The translations under genes were made by a program, and so were the position numbers. This document shows positions 2,036-64,000 of a DNA stretch of 64,000 bases, piece by piece. The notes below the pieces were generated by a model. The model was not told the origin of the DNA and made no database searches. It saw only the letters and a program-made list of their open reading frames with translations. The DNA comes from an uncultured Bacteroidales bacterium. GTDB taxonomy: Bacteria > Bacteroidota > Bacteroidia > Bacteroidales > Paludibacteraceae. The stretch is taken from NCBI GenBank assembly GCA_900320865.1, contig ONTT01000005.1, positions 38,365 through 102,364 of the forward strand. Reading direction: 5' to 3'. The first letter of the stretch is position 1; each line of letters starts with the position of its first letter.

Positions 2036-2221
2036 GGACAGAATTATTAAATAAACGCTAGTATGGCTGCTGCTGCAAGGCGGGGCAAGACAGGACTGAA
2101 ACATTTTGAAAGAAAGAATTTATATATATTTTCCTCGAATCTTTGTATGCACCTTATGAACCCAACCGCCAACACCTTAACAATCATAGACAGAATAAGG
2201 CATGCATAGGAGTTCTATTGG

Positions 2222-2265
2222 GTGATTATAGCGTGATTAATGCGTGATTATTGTGTGATTCGAAG
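2222..2265. repeat. Four-unit array with exact 11-bp spacing
   Basis: GTGATT begins at 2222, 2233, 2244 and 2255, always 11 bp apart; units are GTGATTATAGC, GTGATTAATGC, GTGATTATTGT and GTGATTCGAAG. The 11-bp period would put every copy on the same face of the helix. The rest of the 363-bp gap between 1951 and 2313 holds the 21-bp array, this array and the leader below; I see no gene in it. Confidence 0.8.
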
Positions 2266-2284
2266 AGGAGGAGGAAGAAGCAAA

Positions 2285-2316
2285 TTTGTTAAACAACTGA
2301 AAATCAAATATTTATG
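2285..2316 (+). promoter_or_regulatory. Conserved leader ending at an ATG, copy 1
   Basis: TTTGTTAAAC then AACTGAAAATCAAATATTT and the ATG. Apart from one inserted base and about four changes it matches 63651-63681, in front of another small gene. Both copies sit directly downstream of an 11-bp-phased array. Confidence 0.7.
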
Positions 2317-2736
2317 GCAAGAGAAAAACTTTCCGCGGGTATTGATGAAGTCAACGGAGCTACCTCTCCCGGACATATCCATCGCATCAAACGCTTTCGC
2401 GATCCACGGGGACGTATCATTGGCGTCGGAGTACAAGAAACATATGACGTCAAGCACCCTCGTAACTGGAAAAAGAAACCTGCCGTAGGGGAAGAGAAAG
2501 CGAACCAGCAGCTCTTCAAAAAAGCCTCTGAAATCATGGATAAAGCTTTGAGTGACCCTAAACTCTATGACTATTGGCAGCGGCGTTTCGAAGCGCAGTT
2601 ATTTGCCACAAAAGGCTCTAAACCCGATCGTTTTGCCCTCGCCCTGCCGAATGGTACCAAGAAGCGCTACATACGTTTCGACGCCTTTGTACGTGCCATG
2701 ATCATGCAGGAACTCAAAGCCAAACAACAAAAATAG
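2314..2736 (+). CDS. Unknown 140-aa basic protein
   Basis: I do not recognise the family. The sequence is Lys/Arg-rich with no signal peptide or membrane segment, so it is probably cytoplasmic. The N-terminal third contains GHIHRIKRFRDPRGR and a possible beta-strand region; residues 65-140 look helical with aromatic positions (YDYWQRRF) and end in a basic helix (MIMQELKAKQQK). It has its own repeat array and leader and is followed directly by the thiL promoter, so it is probably monocistronic. DNA or RNA binding would fit the composition but is only a guess. Confidence 0.6.
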   Translation: MAREKLSAGIDEVNGATSPGHIHRIKRFRDPRGRIIGVGVQETYDVKHPRNWKKKPAVGEEKANQQLFKKASEIMDKALSDPKLYDYWQRRFEAQLFATKGSKPDRFALALPNGTKKRYIRFDAFVRAMIMQELKAKQQK

Positions 2737-26460: not shown

Positions 26461-28260
26461 TTATTTTTTAATACGCTGCCAAACAGCATCTTTGATCTCT
26501 ACCGGATATTTCTCGCGCAACCGCTTGATCCATGCTGCCTCGAGGAAATCTTGATAGTCGGTCGTTACTTTACCCTTCTCGTCATTCCAAGCCTCCGGTG
26601 CTTTCAGTTTCTTACCAACGCATTCTACGATCGGCAATGCCTCATTGGGCGTAAACTCTGCATTCTTCGCTTTGAAACCGTATTTATCTACAGCGCTGTT
26701 CTTGCCCAGTTCCCACAAACCGTGTTGCACTTTGACGTAGGTCACGCTGTCGCAGTTGATACGTTGTGCGATATAGCTTTGAATGGAGTCGGGGTTGGCA
26801 CTCTTGATAATCGCTTTCACAGCTTTCAGACTGCTTTTATCTTTTGCCTGAATCAGATACCCTTTATAGTGCGGTTTTTCCCAGGTGTATTTCTTCTTGT
26901 TGGCTTTGAAGAAGTTCTCAAGACCGGCCGTATCTTTCGCGGCCTTATCCCATACTTCGCGCAGCGATACTTCGAACAGAAGGATACCATCGTGATATTC
27001 CTGAACGAGGTTTCTCAGTTCAGGATACTTCGACTCCAGGTGCGCGTCTGCGTAGGCTTTTACGGCCGCATCATTCATCGTCTCCGGGAGTTTATACTCG
27101 GCGCGCGTCTTGCGAATGAAACTCTTTTCAACCTCTTGCGAGCGCTCATCGCGCATCACTTGGCGCTGGATCTGCGAACGCATAGAGTCCAAAGGTTGAA
27201 TACCGCGCTCGTCCTCTTTATAGATGATATGCCATCCGTATTGCGAACGAATCGGTTTGCTGATTTCTCCGGCTTTGATGCTGAAGGCAGCTTCTTCGAA
27301 GGGCTTCACCATCATGCCGAGACCGAACCAGCCTAAGTCTCCTCCGCGCACACTGCTACCACGATCTTCCGACTCCGTCTTTGCTACTTCTGCGAAATTC
27401 TCCGGGGTAACGATGCTTGCTATTTGCTCAATCTCGGCCAATTTGGCAGCATCGAGGCTGTCGAGGTTGCTGTCTCCACGCGGTACCATCTTCATGATAT
27501 GACGTGCTTTGACTTCTTTATGGTCTTGCTCCTCTTCCACTTTCACGATATGCCAGCCGTATTGGGTGCGGAAAGGCTTGCTGATTGCACCTACTTCGGT
27601 GTTGTATACCGCCTCTTCCAAAGAGTATACATAGCGGAACGGAGTGATCCAGCCCAATTCACCGCCGGTCTCTTGTACGTTCGGATCCGTGCTCAATTCG
27701 CGAGCTACCTTATCAAAGGGCTCAACCGGCAAACGTTTCTCGATGGTTTTCCATTTTCCTTTTACTTTTTTCTTCTCCACCTTCAGTTGACCAATCGTTA
27801 CACGCTCGTAGGCTTCGTTTATCTTCGCCAACGCATCAGCCTGCGCAGCACTATCGGCATTAGCCGGACATTGGATGGCAATATGTGCTGCACGGCGATC
27901 CTTAGCAATACGTGCCCAACTCAGCGCGATGATACTATCCATCGCAGCGTCGTCCTGCATGTATTTGGGAGTAGCTTGTGCGCGGTAGCCTTTCAACTCT
28001 TTCTTGAATGCTTCGGTCGTGTCGATACCTTGCGCTTCAGCTTCTGCCACTTTCAGTTTGAAGTTAATGAACATCTCCAGATACTCATCCATCGTCTTCG
28101 GGTCCAAAGCGCCGGCCTGGTTGTTCTTCTCGTAGATATACAAGAACTCCCCGGCACTTACTGCCTTGCCGTTAATTGTCATCAGGGTCTCATCCGAACC
28201 CTGAGCCGCTGCTGTTAAAAAGCTCATCGCGGCTACCAAAAAAAGAATACTTTTTTTCAT
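26461..28260 (-). CDS. SurA/PpiC-type periplasmic peptidyl-prolyl isomerase
   Basis: 599 residues with a signal peptide (KKSILFLVAAMSFLTAAAQG). The N-terminal chaperone region (20-170) is helical; two parvulin domains follow, each ending in the same signature (FRTQYGWHIVKVEEEQ and IRSQYGWHIIYKEDE, near 225-245 and 340-355). The C-terminal half is helical. It should assist folding of outer-membrane proteins. A Bacteroidota promoter lies just upstream, and this is the first gene of the long minus-strand run. Confidence 0.88.
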   Translation of the reverse strand: MKKSILFLVAAMSFLTAAAQGSDETLMTINGKAVSAGEFLYIYEKNNQAGALDPKTMDEYLEMFINFKLKVAEAEAQGIDTTEAFKKELKGYRAQATPKYMQDDAAMDSIIALSWARIAKDRRAAHIAIQCPANADSAAQADALAKINEAYERVTIGQLKVEKKKVKGKWKTIEKRLPVEPFDKVARELSTDPNVQETGGELGWITPFRYVYSLEEAVYNTEVGAISKPFRTQYGWHIVKVEEEQDHKEVKARHIMKMVPRGDSNLDSLDAAKLAEIEQIASIVTPENFAEVAKTESEDRGSSVRGGDLGWFGLGMMVKPFEEAAFSIKAGEISKPIRSQYGWHIIYKEDERGIQPLDSMRSQIQRQVMRDERSQEVEKSFIRKTRAEYKLPETMNDAAVKAYADAHLESKYPELRNLVQEYHDGILLFEVSLREVWDKAAKDTAGLENFFKANKKKYTWEKPHYKGYLIQAKDKSSLKAVKAIIKSANPDSIQSYIAQRINCDSVTYVKVQHGLWELGKNSAVDKYGFKAKNAEFTPNEALPIVECVGKKLKAPEAWNDEKGKVTTDYQDFLEAAWIKRLREKYPVEIKDAVWQRIKK

Positions 28261-28332: not shown

Positions 28333-28451
28333 TAAAAAACGATTTTTTTTTGTTGAGTGGTACCCCTCGGAGGGGGTGCGCATAGGTAATGCCTCCGACT
28401 TAAGTCCTACTTAAGTCTTACTTTCCTCTTATAAAAGTACGATTAGTTGGA

Positions 28452-28488: not shown

Positions 28489-29544
28489 TTATTTTTTGAG
28501 ATATTGTGCGAATGTTTTTTCGAAGAGTTGAACGGCTTGGTTGAGTGAACCGAAGAGTTCTCCTCCTGAGGCATTGGCGTGTCCACCGCCATGGAAGACT
28601 TCCGAGGCCCAGACGTTAACGGGTCTGTCTCCTTGTGATCGGAAAGAGATACGGATTCGGGGTTTGGGAGTACCGGGTTTCGGTCGCTCCTCGCGCATGA
28701 AGACGGAGTAGTAGACGTCGCTGATTTGCAGGGGCATGTTCACCAATCCTTCGGTGTCGCCGACTTGGTAATGATACTGGTCCAATTCGTCTGCCGAGAG
28801 GGTGATGAGCGAGAGGTGATACTCAGGATAGATGCGCATTTTACGATATAAAGCATAGCCCGTAAGTCTCACTCTATCAGTCGAATACTGATTAAAGACA
28901 GCGTTGTATATAAAGTCTTTGTCAATTCCTGCGCGGACGAGTTCGGCGATGATTTCGTATAGTTCGCAGCTGTTGGAATTGAAGGCAAAATTGCCTGTGT
29001 CGGTCATCAAACCGGTATATATCGCAGTAGCGATTTCTTTGGATATCGGCGATTGGTTTTCGAGGATTTGGGTGATGAATCGATAGACGATTTCGCAGGA
29101 TGATGTAGCCTCGGGGAAAGAGAATACGATGTTCGCGAAATCAGTAGGGTGAAGGTGGTGGTCAATGAGGATTTTTGGTGCATTGTTCGCCATGAGTCGT
29201 TCGCCTATCGGTCCGATTCTCTTGGGATCGTTGTAGTCGGTGCAGAGGAAGAGGTCCGCTTGGTTGATTAGGGTTTCGCAGGTCTTCGCATCTTTCTCGT
29301 AGATATGGATTTTTTCCGCGTCCGGCATCCAGTTAAAGAACGCGGGGAAAGCGTTGGGAACTACCACTTGGACGGATTGTGAATTGTCCGTTGTGGGTTG
29401 ATTTTTCAGCCAATGGTATAGCGCGAGCGCGGATCCCATCGCGTCGCCATCGGGCGCCATGTGAGTGGTAATAACTATATGTTTCGCCTGCGCGATATAT
29501 TCATGCGCTTGAGCGAGTTGTTCGAAGGGCAGTTCGATCTTCAT
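28489..29544 (-). CDS. nrnA: DHH-family oligoribonuclease / pAp phosphatase NrnA
   Basis: 351 residues. NrnA degrades 2-5 nt RNA fragments and dephosphorylates pAp. DHH motifs in order: THMAPDGDAMGSALAL, LCTDYNDPKRIG, LIDHHLHPTDFANI and GLMTDTGNFAF; the DHHA1 domain ends with GGGHANASGG. All metal-binding Asp and His residues are present. It is read alone from its own promoter and ends at a strong terminator. Bacteroidota lack the classical Orn, so this is probably the main nanoRNase. Confidence 0.92.
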   Translation of the reverse strand: MKIELPFEQLAQAHEYIAQAKHIVITTHMAPDGDAMGSALALYHWLKNQPTTDNSQSVQVVVPNAFPAFFNWMPDAEKIHIYEKDAKTCETLINQADLFLCTDYNDPKRIGPIGERLMANNAPKILIDHHLHPTDFANIVFSFPEATSSCEIVYRFITQILENQSPISKEIATAIYTGLMTDTGNFAFNSNSCELYEIIAELVRAGIDKDFIYNAVFNQYSTDRVRLTGYALYRKMRIYPEYHLSLITLSADELDQYHYQVGDTEGLVNMPLQISDVYYSVFMREERPKPGTPKPRIRISFRSQGDRPVNVWASEVFHGGGHANASGGELFGSLNQAVQLFEKTFAQYLKK

Positions 29545-54764: not shown

Positions 54765-54796
54765 AAAAATAGAGACCTCCGGGCCTCTATTTTTTG
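54765..54796. terminator. Terminator of rng, usable from both sides
   Basis: Stem AAAAATAGAG (54765-54774) / CTCTATTTTT (54785-54794) with a 10-nt loop; A-run left, T-run right. Confidence 0.75.
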
Positions 54797-54800
54797 TTAT

Positions 54801-54856
54801 AAATCATAAATCAAAAATCAAAAATCAAAAATCAAAAATCAAAAATCATAAATCAC
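54801..54856. repeat. AAATCAA heptamer array 1 (eight units)
   Basis: Units AAATCAT, five AAATCAA, AAATCAT, AAATCAC, exactly 7 bp apart. The minus-strand stop codon of the neighbouring gene (plus TCA at 54846-54848) is inside a unit, and the last two residues Asp-Leu of that protein are coded by the array. Confidence 0.85.
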
Positions 54857-55346
54857 TACTTCCTTCCTCTATCTCTACTTCCGCTCCCGGGATATAGCGC
54901 TTCAGCACACGGGCCACACCGGTGGTCCAGCTGTTGATGGAGTCGTTGTCCATCTGCAGGCCGCTGATCATGTGTACCACTTGGTCGATCGGCATGCCGT
55001 AGCGCAGCACGCCTGAGATGAGGCGGGCGTAGTTCCAGAACTCACGGTCGAACTTATAACTCAGTCCCTCTACTGTGGTCTTGAACCCGCGGGTGTTGAC
55101 AAACTGGAAATCATATCGGTGGTGGCCGTCTTCTTTTGTCACCTTGATAATCTTCCCTTTTGTCACGGATTTGGGCAAGGCGATACCCATCTCGTCGTCT
55201 GCCAGACCTGTGAAGATCTCGTACGGACGACCGTCCTTCAGTCCCACGAAGGCAATCCATTTATCTTTCTGGTTCTGGAACCGAACGACGTCGCATTCCA
55301 ATTCTACCGGTCGCTTCAATAGCGTTGTGTTCTCTTGTATTTCCAT
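54846..55346 (-). CDS. Stand-alone class II ribonucleotide reductase C-terminal-like protein
   Basis: 166 residues. EIFTGLADDEMGIALPKSVT, KEDGHHRYDFQFVNTRG and ISGVLRYGMPIDQVVHMISG resemble the C-terminal region of B12-dependent (class II, NrdJ-type) reductases around the TSCPD domain. The catalytic barrel is absent here, and the open frame is intact, so it is a separate small protein, not an obvious fragment. It may regulate or reactivate a reductase encoded elsewhere. The gene is bordered on both sides by AAATCAA heptamer arrays. Confidence 0.6.
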   Translation of the reverse strand: MEIQENTTLLKRPVELECDVVRFQNQKDKWIAFVGLKDGRPYEIFTGLADDEMGIALPKSVTKGKIIKVTKEDGHHRYDFQFVNTRGFKTTVEGLSYKFDREFWNYARLISGVLRYGMPIDQVVHMISGLQMDNDSINSWTTGVARVLKRYIPGAEVEIEEGSSDL

Positions 55347-55388
55347 AAATCAAAAATCACAAATCAAAAATCAAAAATCACAAATCAC
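55347..55388. repeat. AAATCAA heptamer array 2 (six units)
   Basis: Six 7-bp units (AAATCAA or AAATCAC) fill the gap between two minus-strand genes. Again the stop codon (plus TCA at 55378-55380) lies in a unit in the same phase as in array 1, and the encoded end is again Asp-Leu. Confidence 0.85.
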
Positions 55389-56094
55389 CAATGCTCAGCT
55401 TTGCTGAGCAACTCGTCTCTCCTGCTTCGTTCTTCATCTGATATTGCACCCCATCGTCGGTAACGAGGTAATAGATCTGCATCTCTTCGCCCAGCATCGC
55501 TTCTTTGCTGTAGTTGATGTCGAGTCGTACCTTCTTACCGTAATAATCCGGCAGGTATGCGTCCGTCATCGCCTGCAGGTAACGGCAACTGTTGCAATGC
55601 CCGTTGTAGTCGATATCCGAATAGACTATTTTATGCGGCATAGAGCCGGTCGGCTCGGGAATAGTGGTCATCCGTACGCGCGGCATTTCCAGCACTTCGC
55701 CATCGATGGCATTCTCGAAGATCGGATCATCGAAATAGTTCACGATCTCGCGTTTTTGGAGATCCAATATCGCCCAGACGGTCTTACAGATACCGATAAG
55801 CCGGTCACCGGAATAGATGCGGAAATTACGGGTACTGAGCATGTGTGCATTGGATTCTATCCAGGTCTCGAACCGCACGCGCTCACAGTGGGTCGGTAAC
55901 TCGTACATCTCTACCGAAAGGCGGGTCAGGATCCATGTCAGTCCTCTCGGGTGCAGCACGGCAATACCGAAACCGAGTTCATCGGCTACCGTGCCGGCTA
56001 CTTCCAGCAGGTAGTTCTCCAGGTTAAACAGCCGCAGTCTCTTGCGCCCGTCCACTTCCTGGTATTTGATCTCATATTCGTACGAATATTTCAT
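55378..56094 (-). CDS. Acyl-ACP thioesterase
   Basis: 238 residues from the ATG at 56094; an upstream in-frame ATG lies inside a heptamer array. Two hot-dog domains in tandem: YSYEYEIKYQEVDGRKRLRL with LARLSV-like ILTRLSVEMYELP, and KIVYSDIDYNGHCNSCRYLQ with the catalytic-type DxNxH arrangement in DYNGHCNS. It hydrolyses acyl-ACP to end fatty-acid synthesis. It ends at a stop codon within the next heptamer array. Confidence 0.85.
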   Translation of the reverse strand: MKYSYEYEIKYQEVDGRKRLRLFNLENYLLEVAGTVADELGFGIAVLHPRGLTWILTRLSVEMYELPTHCERVRFETWIESNAHMLSTRNFRIYSGDRLIGICKTVWAILDLQKREIVNYFDDPIFENAIDGEVLEMPRVRMTTIPEPTGSMPHKIVYSDIDYNGHCNSCRYLQAMTDAYLPDYYGKKVRLDINYSKEAMLGEEMQIYYLVTDDGVQYQMKNEAGETSCSAKLSIGDL

Positions 56095-56095
56095 T

Positions 56096-56130
56096 AAATC
56101 AAAAATCAAAAATCAAAAATCATAAATCAA
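56096..56130. repeat. AAATCAA heptamer array 3 (five units)
   Basis: Five 7-bp units lie between the S9 peptidase stop and the thioesterase start codon. They replace any purine-rich ribosome-binding site. Confidence 0.85.
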
Positions 56131-56133
56131 AGT

Positions 56134-58269
56134 TTACTTGAGATACTTGTCAAGGAAACTTCGGAACTCTCTTTGCCAGAGAATACCGTTCTGCGGCTTG
56201 AGCACCCAGTGGTTCTCATCGGGGAAGATAAGCAGTTCTGCCGGTATGCCGCGCATCTTGGCTGCATCAAAGGCTGCCATGGCTTGGTTGGCTAAAATAC
56301 GGTAGTCTTTCTCGCCGTGGATACAGAGGATCGGTGTGTCCCATTTATCGACGAACTTATGGGGACTGTTGGCGAAGGTGCGTTGCGCGATGGCATTGTC
56401 TTTCTCCCAGTACGCGCCGCCCATATCCCAGTTGGCAAACCATTTCTCTTCGGTTTCCAGATACTGCATCTCCAGATTGAAAATGCCGTCGTGCGCAATA
56501 AACGCTTTGAAGCGGCCGTCGTGATGTCCGGCAATCCAATAGACGCTGAAGCCGCCGAAGGAAGCACCTACGCAACCGAGATGGTCTTTGTCCACATAGG
56601 GTTCGGTGCAGAACTCATCGATGGCGGTGAAATAATCGCGCATACATTGACCGCCGTAGTCGCCGGAGATCTCTTCGTTCCATGCCTTGCCAAAGCCGGG
56701 CAAACCGCGACGGTTAGGCGCTACGATGATATAATCGCCGGCAGACATCATCATGAAGTTCCATCTGAACGACCAGAACTGCGAAACAGGACTCTGCGGA
56801 CCGCCCTCGCAATAGAGGATGGTCGGGTATTTCTTAGACGGATCGAAATGCGGCGGATAGATGATCCAGGTCAACATATCCTTGCCGTCCGTCGTCTTCT
56901 GCCAACGCGGCACAACGGTGGAGCGCTCGATCTGATTGTATATATTGTCGTTCTCGTGGGTCAGTTGCGCCAGCGTGAGGAATCCGTCCGGGTTATTGGG
57001 TTCTTCGAGCAGGTCCATCCGGTATATCTCGTTCGCCTGACGCATGGAGTGACCTAAGATATATACGTAATGATCGCATACGTCGCCTAAGCCCAAGTCA
57101 TGTTGACCGCACGTCAGTCGTCCGATCCAACCGCTCAGGTTCGCCTCGTAGATATCGATCGTCCCGTTCCAAACGGCATTAAAGAGCAGGGTGTTTGCGT
57201 CTTTCCATTTAAACTCATCTACGTTGGTGTCCATCGTACGGCTTAAGAAACGTTTCTCACCTGTCTCCAGGTTCATTACCATCAGGCGGTTCTCGTCGCT
57301 CTCGTAGCCGTCCCGCTCCATGGATAGCCACGCAATCCACTTGCCGTCCGGTGAGTATGCCGGATTCGTGTCGTAGCCCTTGTTATCCGCGGTGATGTTC
57401 CTTTCATCCTTTAACCTCTTGACGCTCGACTCTCCACTCTCGACTTTTATCAAATAGATATCGCTGTTGGTGGAAACGGCATAATCCAGACCGGTCTTTT
57501 TGCGGCAGGTATAGGCGATCTCTTCGTTATTGGGATTCCATGCCAACTGCTCAATACCACCGAAGGGTTTCATCGGGCATTCGAAAGCCGTACCCTCGAG
57601 GATGTTCACGCCTTCGCCTACCTTCGCACTCTTGATGCGTTCGCCTTCGCCGTAGTAATCGATCTCCAACGGACAAACGAAGGGCTGTGGAGCGGTCTCC
57701 GTCCATTCGTCCCAGTGTTTGTACATCAGGTCCTCGTGTATATGACCGGTAGCCAAAGGCAGGTCCGGATATTTATCGGCAGTCGTCTCAACGGTCTTCA
57801 CCTGTTTGATCAGGATGATCTTATCGCGCATCGGAGAGAGCAGGAAGCCCTCGATGTCCTCCGCTCCTTCTACTTTTACTTCTTCGCCGTCGCGACGCAG
57901 GTACAGCTGTCCGCCGCGCATGTAAGCGAGCCATCCGCTGCAACCGAACCATGCCGGCTCATATCCCACGAACTCATCGAACACACCTAACTCACCTTCG
58001 ATATCGAAAGGATTGCATACGCGGATCCAAGAGGTAGAGCGGTTCTCTTCTACGCTGTAGTAACTCACGGTATAAGCCAACCAGCCGGTCTCGATATCCG
58101 ATACGACGCTGCCGATTCGGCCCATCGCCCACAAACCTTCCGGCGTCAGACGCCCGCCTTCAATCGTGATCTGCGGCTTTGTGATAGGAGCCTTACCTTC
58201 CTCTGCCTTCTGGCAACTTACACCCACTAATGTCATTGCTGCCATAATAAAAATTTTCCAGTTTGTCAT
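56134..58269 (-). CDS. S9-family prolyl oligopeptidase-like lipoprotein
   Basis: 711 residues from the start at 58269. A lipobox-like signal (IFIMAAMTLVGVSC) suggests a lipoprotein. The N-terminal beta-propeller region carries NPAYSPDGKWIAWLS; the alpha/beta hydrolase domain has the nucleophile S570 in GCVGASFGGFSVYW, the Asp in HGEKDYRI and the His in ENHWVLK. It cleaves short peptides, commonly dipeptides. Near residue 280 the run VESGESSVKRLK is encoded by heptamer-like DNA. Confidence 0.9.
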   Translation of the reverse strand: MTNWKIFIMAAMTLVGVSCQKAEEGKAPITKPQITIEGGRLTPEGLWAMGRIGSVVSDIETGWLAYTVSYYSVEENRSTSWIRVCNPFDIEGELGVFDEFVGYEPAWFGCSGWLAYMRGGQLYLRRDGEEVKVEGAEDIEGFLLSPMRDKIILIKQVKTVETTADKYPDLPLATGHIHEDLMYKHWDEWTETAPQPFVCPLEIDYYGEGERIKSAKVGEGVNILEGTAFECPMKPFGGIEQLAWNPNNEEIAYTCRKKTGLDYAVSTNSDIYLIKVESGESSVKRLKDERNITADNKGYDTNPAYSPDGKWIAWLSMERDGYESDENRLMVMNLETGEKRFLSRTMDTNVDEFKWKDANTLLFNAVWNGTIDIYEANLSGWIGRLTCGQHDLGLGDVCDHYVYILGHSMRQANEIYRMDLLEEPNNPDGFLTLAQLTHENDNIYNQIERSTVVPRWQKTTDGKDMLTWIIYPPHFDPSKKYPTILYCEGGPQSPVSQFWSFRWNFMMMSAGDYIIVAPNRRGLPGFGKAWNEEISGDYGGQCMRDYFTAIDEFCTEPYVDKDHLGCVGASFGGFSVYWIAGHHDGRFKAFIAHDGIFNLEMQYLETEEKWFANWDMGGAYWEKDNAIAQRTFANSPHKFVDKWDTPILCIHGEKDYRILANQAMAAFDAAKMRGIPAELLIFPDENHWVLKPQNGILWQREFRSFLDKYLK
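57415..57444. repeat. Heptamer-like stretch inside the S9 peptidase gene
   Basis: On the minus strand GTCGAGA, GTGGAGA, GTCGAGC, GTCAAGA, GG, similar in sequence to the mutY array. Confidence 0.5.
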
Positions 58270-63552: not shown

Positions 63553-63591
63553 GATGGAAAATGACTAACCACACCCAGAAACAGGTGATTT

Positions 63592-63646
63592 GAGTCCGTA
63601 TTGCCTCCGAGATTACTCTGAGACGAGTCCATCTTGAGTCCGATAA
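63592..63646. repeat. Five-unit array with exact 11-bp spacing
   Basis: Units GAGTCCGTATT, GCCTCCGAGAT, TACTCTGAGAC, GAGTCCATCTT and GAGTCCGATAA start at 63592, 63603, 63614, 63625 and 63636. Positions 4-5 are always TC and positions 6-7 nearly always CG. Together with the leader it is the counterpart of 2222-2316. Confidence 0.8.
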
Positions 63647-63650
63647 CATG

Positions 63651-63681
63651 TTTGTAAACCACTGAAAATCAAATGATTATG
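63651..63681 (+). promoter_or_regulatory. Conserved leader ending at an ATG, copy 2
   Basis: TTTGTAAACC then ACTGAAAATCAAATGATT and ATG. It differs from copy 1 (2285-2316) by one missing base and about four changes. Confidence 0.7.
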
Positions 63682-63858
63682 AAAGAAGAGAAAATGCAAT
63701 GGTGCAAAGCAAGGCAGCCAGCCAATCAAAGCGGAATCACGCTGACACGGCGGAAGAATAAGCAGGGCGAGTATGTGTGTTATTTGAGCAAGAAAACCAT
63801 GCGCGCCTACTTGTGGAAAGTCTGTGGCGACATCTACGATGCTGCCCACAACGGGTAA
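63679..63858 (+). CDS. Unknown 59-aa basic protein
   Basis: 59 residues from the ATG at 63679. Lys/Arg-rich with three Cys (MQWCKARQPANQSGITLTRR, GEYVCYLSKKTMRAYLWKVC). I do not know the family and see no clear relation to the 140-aa protein at 2314, but both are preceded by the same leader and by an 11-bp-phased array. Cytoplasmic by composition. Confidence 0.5.
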   Translation: MKEEKMQWCKARQPANQSGITLTRRKNKQGEYVCYLSKKTMRAYLWKVCGDIYDAAHNG

Positions 63859-63885: not shown

Positions 63886-63903
63886 TGAGAGAGCGACCTT
63901 TCG

Positions 63904-64000
63904 TGTAATGAACCCCAAAAGTTGAACAAAAAACTTTTGGGGTTTTATTATGAAACATTCTTATGAAAAAAGGTTACTAGCTGTTAAAAAATGTCTTAAA
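63904..64000 (+). mobile_element. Left end of an IS3/IS150-like insertion sequence
   Basis: TGTAATGAACCCCAAAAGTT at 63904-63923 is typical of IS3-family ends. A 13-bp inverted repeat AACCCCAAAAGTT / AACTTTTGGGGTT (63911-63923, 63932-63944) forms a hairpin just before the transposase start, as in elements that block read-in translation. The rest lies beyond the window. Confidence 0.7.
63950..64000 (+). CDS. IS3-family transposase orfA, N-terminus only
   Basis: Starts at 63950 with MKHSYEKRLLAVKKCLK and runs out of the window. Such openings (xxYSYExKLxxVxxxL) are typical of the helix-turn-helix orfA of IS3-like elements. Only 17 codons are visible. Confidence 0.6.
   Translation, partial: MKHSYEKRLLAVKKCLK

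Follow-up and report, generated by a model that had tools for sequence, protein, structure and literature searches.

The 64,000-nucleotide stretch analysed here, which we call the window, carries two small plus-strand genes, each preceded by an array of short units repeated every 11 bp, and a third array of the same period.

2138 to 2145, plus strand: weak -7-like box AATCTTTG, an uncertain assignment; relatives have TACCTTTG or TATCTTTG there.
2222 to 2265, plus strand: array of four 11-bp units, GTGATTATAGC GTGATTAATGC GTGATTATTGT GTGATTCGAAG, from the window sequence and a period scan.
2285 to 2313, plus strand: A-rich leader similar to 63651-63678, of a type also found before unrelated genes.
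2314 to 2736, plus strand: A1 gene, encoding a basic protein of 140 aa that belongs to a genus-restricted multi-copy family, from profile searches.
28368 to 28448, no strand assigned: third period-11 array, with CTTAAGTCCTA-like units, scoring 27/44 (best stretch at 28377) and absent from the initial annotation.
63592 to 63645, plus strand: second period-11 array, with GAGTCCG-like units, scoring 25/44 (best stretch at 63587).
63679 to 63858, plus strand: second small gene, 59 aa, with an N-terminal part of family B and a last 23 residues that match family A3.

Exact copies of GTGATT stand at 2222, 2233, 2244 and 2255, confirming the 11-bp spacing first noted at this locus. The core is intact in all four units of the array, and two of the four have T at position 9. 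In a fixed-lag scan the top period-11 score of the window was 32/44, at 2206, compared to maxima of 27 in 100 base-shuffled windows and 25 in 60 first-order Markov windows; the first array exceeds chance. Like the long simple sequence repeats of 5-11 nt, it consists of a short unit repeated head to tail over a greater length than expected by chance. The third array lies between minus-strand ORFs at 26461-28260 and 28489-29544, 107 bp upstream of the former. At 1597-1950 there is a gene of 117 aa with a weak MarR-type match (23.5 bits, against a curated cut-off of 24.6).

The A1 family is confined to the genus of the window, an uncultured group of gut bacteria within the Paludibacteraceae. In a sample with one genome per species, a profile built from 30 members matched 111 of 121 genomes of this genus, with 1-15 matches per genome; 97 genomes had matches at 1e-12 or better, 14 had weak matches only and 10 had no A1. 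When 393 genomes of the order were searched with the profile, A1 was found in only one of 206 genera: three genomes of the same genus were positive and three same-family genomes of other genera were negative. Most members are about 130-185 aa long, and those of the array-bearing set are 30-81% identical to the window protein. The proteins are basic (median net charge +11, range 4 to 20, 62 members), and the residues invariant among the 30 profile members include R24, K26, E42, R50, P56, E61, R91, Q95 and Y119. The window protein had no match in Pfam or NCBIfam, and the 30 members searched against Pfam up to 0.1 gave four single-member hits, the best at 0.02, with no ribbon-helix-helix and no transposase among them. 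The profile matched nothing in the PDB, the window protein had no relatives in PHROGs, plasmids or phages, and a search of viral contigs with this protein and one other member found no relative. Structure prediction was poor (pLDDT 52).

Nearly every A1 gene is preceded by a period-11 array. After removal of duplicates we compiled 62 distinct A1 genes that matched at 1e-10 or better, whose start was usable and whose upstream sequence ran to 150 bp or more. An array scoring 22/33 or better lies within 300 bp upstream of 58 of the 62, or of 54 of 58 when four genes retrieved via the array pattern (L049, L056, L062 and L068) are left out. Other periods gave arrays in 0-5 of the same 62 upstream regions, except for period 22, the double of 11. 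As background, an array precedes 42 of 867 sampled ORFs of the genus (at least 90 aa, some A1 genes included) and 1 of 266 ORFs in other families. The A1 genes lacking an array are L051 and three from a single genome, G059 (L022, L075 and L077); the three have a common upstream sequence that by eye resembles an insertion-sequence end. Two weaker members in the sampled stretches, outside the set of 62, divided evenly, L078 having an array and L083 having none. All four A1 genes of the window genome, G000 (1.97 Mb in 65 contigs, 83% complete), have arrays: that of the window, L349 (GTGATTACGGG-like), L352 (AAGAACTAAAT-like) and L354 (GAACAACGAAG-like).

The position of the array is also regular. 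Using what we take to be the Bacteroidetes-type -7 box, we found that the box precedes the array in 45 of 58 A1 loci and falls between the array and the ATG in 2; the same promoter pattern gave no match at the A1 locus of the window. The arrays start a median of 10 bp past the box and end a median of 46 bp ahead of the ATG. The period, whose loss in relatives would have spoken against a phased array, is kept at A1. A partial exception is L018, where the gene-proximal GTGATT words have a spacing of 14 bp and a period-11 stretch of another word lies further upstream.

Despite the wide range of protein identity, 48 of 58 A1 array consensus units differ from GTGATT by no more than one change, and GTGATT pairs at A1 are oriented 44 sense to 1 antisense. 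In 45 A1 arrays the unit reads GTGATT, A or C, any base, T, any base, any base (GTGATT-M-n-T-n-n). Positions 7 and 9 hold 0.79 and 0.76 bits, while positions 8, 10 and 11 hold 0.07, 0.19 and 0.07; positions 1-6 served for selecting the arrays, so their conservation is partly built in, but positions 7 and 9 did not. The same constraint is seen in 36 non-A1 GTGATT arrays, with 0.67 and 0.78 bits at positions 7 and 9 and 0.16, 0.22 and 0.20 bits at positions 8, 10 and 11. Shared descent may add to this constraint, yet change has occurred at the free positions and not at 7 and 9. Four units are the commonest number at A1 (23 of 45 arrays) and five at non-A1 arrays (14 of 36). The association, the position, the motif constraint and the genus restriction are all direct observations.

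The units of the arrays are specific to their loci, as had been proposed from the window, and words differ among A1 loci and among those of family B. Even proteins that are 65-66% identical (L018 and L020 compared to L021) have different array words. Co-evolution of word and protein was unsupported, since nearest-neighbour agreement was 0.74 compared to 0.71 in shuffled data. Selection for helical phase, read from missing indels, was likewise unsupported: according to TRF, indels are no rarer in period-11 arrays (27 of 70) than in period-7 arrays (23 of 113).

Comparison of flanking sequences suggests that A1 probably disperses. Eleven records, representing eight distinct loci with three pairs possibly duplicate, carry an A1 that is 71-82% identical to that of the window. 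None of them has the MarR-like, thiL, glycosyltransferase-like or following gene of the window within 1.5 kb or in up to 10 kb of flank, and the sole overlap in neighbours is a set of leucine-rich-repeat-like matches (29-45%) in L070 and L071; the names of these neighbours are in part presumed. Most of the recent copies have promoter, array and gene in common and no flanks, in agreement with the mobility suggested earlier as a possibility. The copies L235 and L236 of one genome are 92.7% identical over a match that spans -199 to +492 from the start. In this pair and in L237/L238 (one genome, 93.8%), L237/L248 (two genomes, 95.7%) and L247/L250 (85.5%), similarity begins at the promoter and gives out near the stop codon or at the next promoter; by eye, the ends showed neither terminal repeats nor target duplications. 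L244/L253 (91.7%) differs in that similarity runs 400 bp beyond the gene, and the close pair L239/L240 is cut by contig ends. Among 30 thiL upstream regions, three of which have little or no sequence, A1 is present in that of the window and in L281, where it is divergent and cut by a contig end; in the four nearest relatives of the window the thiL upstream region is otherwise unlike that of the window. A 45-residue open stretch matching A1 at 10767-10901 of L095, with the array still upstream, is an apparent decayed cassette.

The second array of the window, with units TCCG, TCCG, TCTG, TCCA and TCCG at 63595, 63606, 63617, 63628 and 63639 (counted by hand), is marginal alone, its score of 25 equalling the best of 60 Markov windows. 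It gains support because period 11 ranks high across the loci of family B, a 51-aa family with seven loci, that of the window among them, in 6 of 121 genomes: the period ranks first in six of the seven and second in one. Five of the seven reach 22/33, the window copy scoring 19 and L317 scoring 21. The words differ between these loci and the leader is similar. The claim of phased arrays before small genes is thus borne out in both families, and the second array is supported through its relatives though marginal on its own score. The two window loci do not represent one gene family, as A1 and B differ. When the 59-aa protein was used as a query, nearly all matches were due to its last 23 residues, which lead to A3, a family of about 128 aa present in 22 of 61 genomes. 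Across its first 97 columns A3 shows a distant relationship to A1 (hhalign 94.6%, E 6.5e-8). Of 23 upstream regions from the A3 search, one has an array at 22/33, and it belongs to a family B gene (L286). The A3 loci L287-L313 are multi-copy and often near contig ends, and may belong to repeats or clusters. By eye, a possible insertion-sequence start (AACCCCAAAAGTTGAAC...) was noted just past the second small gene, at 63900-64000.

The likeness between the leader at 2285-2313 and the sequence at 63651-63681, on which the initial annotation built a shared regulatory leader, holds up, at 82% over 44 bp (E 2.2e-4 within its own genome). The corresponding pattern, TAAAMHACTNAAAATN{4,12}ATG, has 25 matches in 121 genomes, compared to 10 for the reversed pattern. 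Eight of the 25 have a period-11 array (six at 22/33 or better, two being the same sequence on two contigs) and precede A1, B and one transporter-like gene. The other 17, one with only 73 bp upstream, stand before ordinary-looking genes with no array, which removes the leader as the regulatory element in common. A relaxed form was matched by 3 of the 62 A1 genes and by 12 of the 867 ORFs, and the leader is missing from 5 of 9 aligned A1 leaders. It is a common type and not the shared module. The proposed two-copy module also gives way to a larger picture, in which A1 has up to 15 matches per genome in 111 genomes and arrays precede ordinary-looking genes as well; the window had revealed one corner of a real, genus-wide phenomenon.

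The GTGATT pattern, allowing at most two mismatches, has 12 hits in the window genome and up to 158 in another. At least one hit was found in 65 of 73 genomes of the genus, and in 7 of 47 genomes of other genera, with one hit each; the reversed pattern is not an independent control, because units with the spacer CTTTA match it. The median number of hits was 1 in the 10 genomes without A1, 6.5 in the 14 with weak matches only and 14 in the 97 with strong matches. When three hits per A1 copy were subtracted, the correlation of hits with A1 number was gone (rho -0.06), so GTGATT is chiefly the word of A1, and a genome-wide A1 regulon is not supported. One genome with no A1 detected, G161, has 18 hits. 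Non-A1 GTGATT arrays between co-oriented genes are divided equally, 10 sense and 10 antisense. A first count of promoters around arrays looked biased (41 pointing away, 34 expected, matched P 0.016), but as a general rule of upstream sites this was not upheld in the GTGATT set, where the promoters around 39 arrays numbered 20 pointing toward and 38 away, close to the ratio expected at random.

A pitch of 11 bases characterises the genus as a whole. With any word allowed, 864 kb of the genus contain 34 period-11 arrays scoring 28/44 or better, in a sample for which 3 of the 20 stretches of one subset were chosen because of arrays; 28 are intergenic, 4 are in ORFs and 2 are at edges. At the same threshold none was found in 334 kb of other families and one, AT-rich, in 331 kb from three other Paludibacteraceae genera. 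Permissive TRF separates less well, with 70 period-11 arrays in 1.18 Mb of the genus compared to 10 in 334 kb of control; all 10 control arrays have indels, and their mean match is 64%, compared to 78% in the genus. The 28 intergenic arrays comprise 17 in tandem, 9 in divergent and 2 in convergent intervals, compared to base-pair expectations of 19.5, 5.4 and 3.1. The words are diverse, and pairs within two changes make up 12% within a genome, 3% between genomes and 0.3% at random. A1 is excluded as the maker of all period-11 arrays, as seven genomes without A1 contain 15 in 319 kb (one G-rich and of low complexity; two of the seven have none), including the word CATCGCACGTT at three places in G139. 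Arrays scoring 28/44 or better lie upstream of an S12-like gene in 11 of 30 species, 230-480 bp from the start; for the most part their words are unlike one another, three resemble GTGATT, one in reversed orientation, and two arrays score exactly at the threshold.

Periods other than 11 are also informative. The fixed-lag scan peaks at periods 7 and 11, with 8 and 9 intermediate and 10 and 13 almost absent; permissive TRF found 28 and 9 arrays of periods 10 and 13. Period-7 arrays numbered 113 in 1.18 Mb of the genus compared to 2 in 334 kb of control according to TRF, and heptamer arrays are enriched at least as much as 11-base arrays. The window itself has period-7 arrays of the AAATCAA type at gene boundaries (54776-54880, 55326-55408 and 56079-56149). 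Some arrays occur as dispersed copies in single genomes. In G130 (L225-L232 and L234), nine dispersed GTGATTAGTAG arrays have only short flanks in common (CCGCTGTC... and CAGCCGACA...) and no A1 directly downstream, and are perhaps a small repeat element. In G146 (L215-L220), six places share an intergenic stretch, about 60-250 bp long, that surrounds a GTGATTTCCGG array, and at several of them a promoter on the opposite strand appears by eye to read into it.

One interpretation of these findings, to which we assign a probability of roughly 0.43, is that about four binding words between the promoter and the ATG of a dispersing cassette are covered by a cooperative binder, most likely A1 or else a partner, that controls A1. 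GTGATT-M-n-T-n-n would be the candidate protein-binding word, presented once per helical turn, and a binder would meet it on one face of the helix, as the initial annotation proposed. Cooperative coverage of the array by a DNA-binding protein, in the likeliest case A1, would repress or meter A1 transcription. A1, promoter and array would move as a cassette of about 620-690 bp, and same-word arrays elsewhere would be secondary sites. The combination of a word with a free spacer, one word per turn, a short row, a promoter-side place and near-universal pairing with A1 suggests a tandem operator. From this arrangement we infer protein binding, with A1 as binder and autoregulation as its effect; to take A1 as the binder is the most economical assumption, and searches of Pfam, NCBIfam and the PDB placed it in no known DNA-binding family. 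Several observations count against a tandem operator: the low pLDDT, the related A1 proteins with different words, an agreement of protein and word no better than in shuffled data, the pitch at L018, the GTGATT hits that no longer follow A1 number once three per copy are subtracted, the lack of indel depletion and the result of the permissive TRF control, as well as the non-A1 GTGATT arrays with no clear promoter or orientation preference and the hits in G161.

Alternatively, the arrays may reflect a mutational habit. Slippage in this genus would generate 7- and 11-base intergenic repeats, A1 cassettes would have inherited one of them, and copying would keep words alike within a genome. Slippage with hitchhiking is a serious explanation and the main rival, and we regard it as tentative but quite possible. 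Slippage-type repeats are common in the genus, and MacGregor 2015 relays the view of Mrazek that such repeats are possible slippage products. The enrichment of period 7 alongside period 11, the varied words upstream of S12-like genes, the persistence of arrays in genomes without A1 and an intergenic distribution near the base-pair expectation are all consistent with it. Slippage does not readily explain why the fixed-lag scan favours periods 7 and 11 and nearly lacks 10 and 13, why 58 of 62 A1 genes come with an array, or why the same positions are constrained and free in A1 and non-A1 arrays.

We consider it unlikely, though worth stating, that the 11-base pitch is kept more than the sequence. 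A1 and B would each carry arrays that they recognise themselves, the words would drift among species and among paralogues, solo arrays would spread in intergenic DNA, and each species would come to have its own set of marked genes.

Control at the RNA level is improbable. Transcribed GUGAUU repeats in the 5' leader would be contacted by a protein or by the ribosome, and translation of A1 would be adjusted in this way, much as an RNA-level role has been suggested for the TAACTGA repeats of Beggiatoaceae. The sense orientation of the A1 arrays in the leader fits such a role, as do the ATG 12-18 nt past the last core in five aligned loci and the family B arrays that by eye follow close behind an upstream frame at several loci. 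RNA control is made less likely because the same word is used both ways round elsewhere. Moreover, 58 array segments folded as RNA were no less structured than their shuffles (mean z -0.77), and a consensus fold of nine leaders had a two-sided change at 1 of 22 pairs.

A role for the array as a recombination or recognition site that moves the A1 cassette, with A1 as a minimal mobility protein, is more doubtful still. The four copy pairs matching only from promoter to about the stop codon could be explained in this way, as could the nine G130 arrays that share only short flanks with no A1 nearby. Against this stand the ends of the four pairs, where no terminal repeats or target duplications were seen by eye, the lack of a transposase match, the similarity reaching 400 bp past the gene in L244/L253, and the A1 upstream of thiL in L281, which indicates that the position is not always new; the unlike thiL upstream regions of the four nearest relatives mean that ordinary rearrangement may suffice. 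We rejected a translation-restart chain (period 11 as 12-1 with GTGA overlaps), which suits GTGATT only and not AACGAGACGAA or GGGATACGCAA; a coding repeat, as the frames hold stops and the arrays are mostly intergenic; an unstructured RNA spacer, as shuffles have, if anything, a little less structure than the array RNA; and a Rho site, as on inspection the GTGATT strand is almost without C.

If A1 reads its own array, the genus would hold a large natural series of proteins and sites with a near-fixed pitch and a drifting sequence, and such a series would be a direct test of how the specificity of tandem DNA binding evolves. If it does not, the genus shows with unusual clarity that repeats of 7 and 11 bases can be favoured, and raises the question of what in replication sets these lengths.

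In the literature on 11-bp arrays, heptamer repeats and simple repeats, mostly from non-subscription sources, we found no report of an A1-array system; the closest known systems include two from plasmid partition. The omega protein of pSM19035 is described as binding arrays of WATCACW (TGTGATT on the other strand) that overlap its own promoter, with four contiguous repeats or more for full ParA activation (PMC9499535). As far as that account goes, omega/parS resembles A1 in joining a small protein with tandem AATCACA/TGTGATT words, and differs in its 7-bp pitch, mixed orientation and plasmid location with ParA, whereas the A1 arrays have an 11-bp pitch and one orientation. The A1 arrays are therefore not contiguous 7-bp WATCACW repeats, although the core word agrees. 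Omega is described as a ribbon-helix-helix (RHH) ParB, and no family of this fold was among the Pfam matches of 30 A1 members; the A1 model itself has a pLDDT of 52. By eye, no ParA partner was recognised among the immediate neighbours in the window, of which the 117-aa MarR-like ORF was searched. ParR of plasmid R1 is stated to require two 11-bp repeats, and titles in the reference list of the same source speak of ten repeats flanking the parA promoter and of autoregulation by ParR (PMC9426499). The A1 locus has, like ParR/parC as described there, 11-bp direct repeats adjoining the gene for a small protein; binding is known for ParR and only predicted for A1. Unlike ParR/parC, the window A1 has no actin-like gene (ParM) recognised by eye beside it, and no sequence relation between the two systems was shown.

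The binder of the PHO box, PhoB, is a response regulator and not the product of an adjacent gene, and the word that it binds is of the CTGTCAT type. The A1 word, GTGATT, is not of this type. In its layout the PHO box is comparable, being described as direct repeat units of 11 nt with seven well conserved and four less conserved positions (PMC4415409); the A1 unit, also of 11 nt, has eight constrained and three nearly free positions. A PHO box is two units by the definition given there, whereas A1 arrays commonly have four. A different parallel is provided by the intergenic TAACTGA heptamers reported from Beggiatoaceae, Cyanobacteria and Bacteroidetes, with two heptamer sets listed for Paludibacter propionicigenes (PMC4679880). 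As described, they are short tandem repeats before unrelated genes, ribosomal genes included, with a patchy taxonomic distribution, and in these respects they are like the arrays of this genus. They consist of one fixed 7-mer, whereas the arrays of this genus have a pitch of 11, a changing word and a dedicated gene family. Heptamer arrays are of an already known kind, and the A1-linked 11-base arrays appear to resemble known tandem operators.
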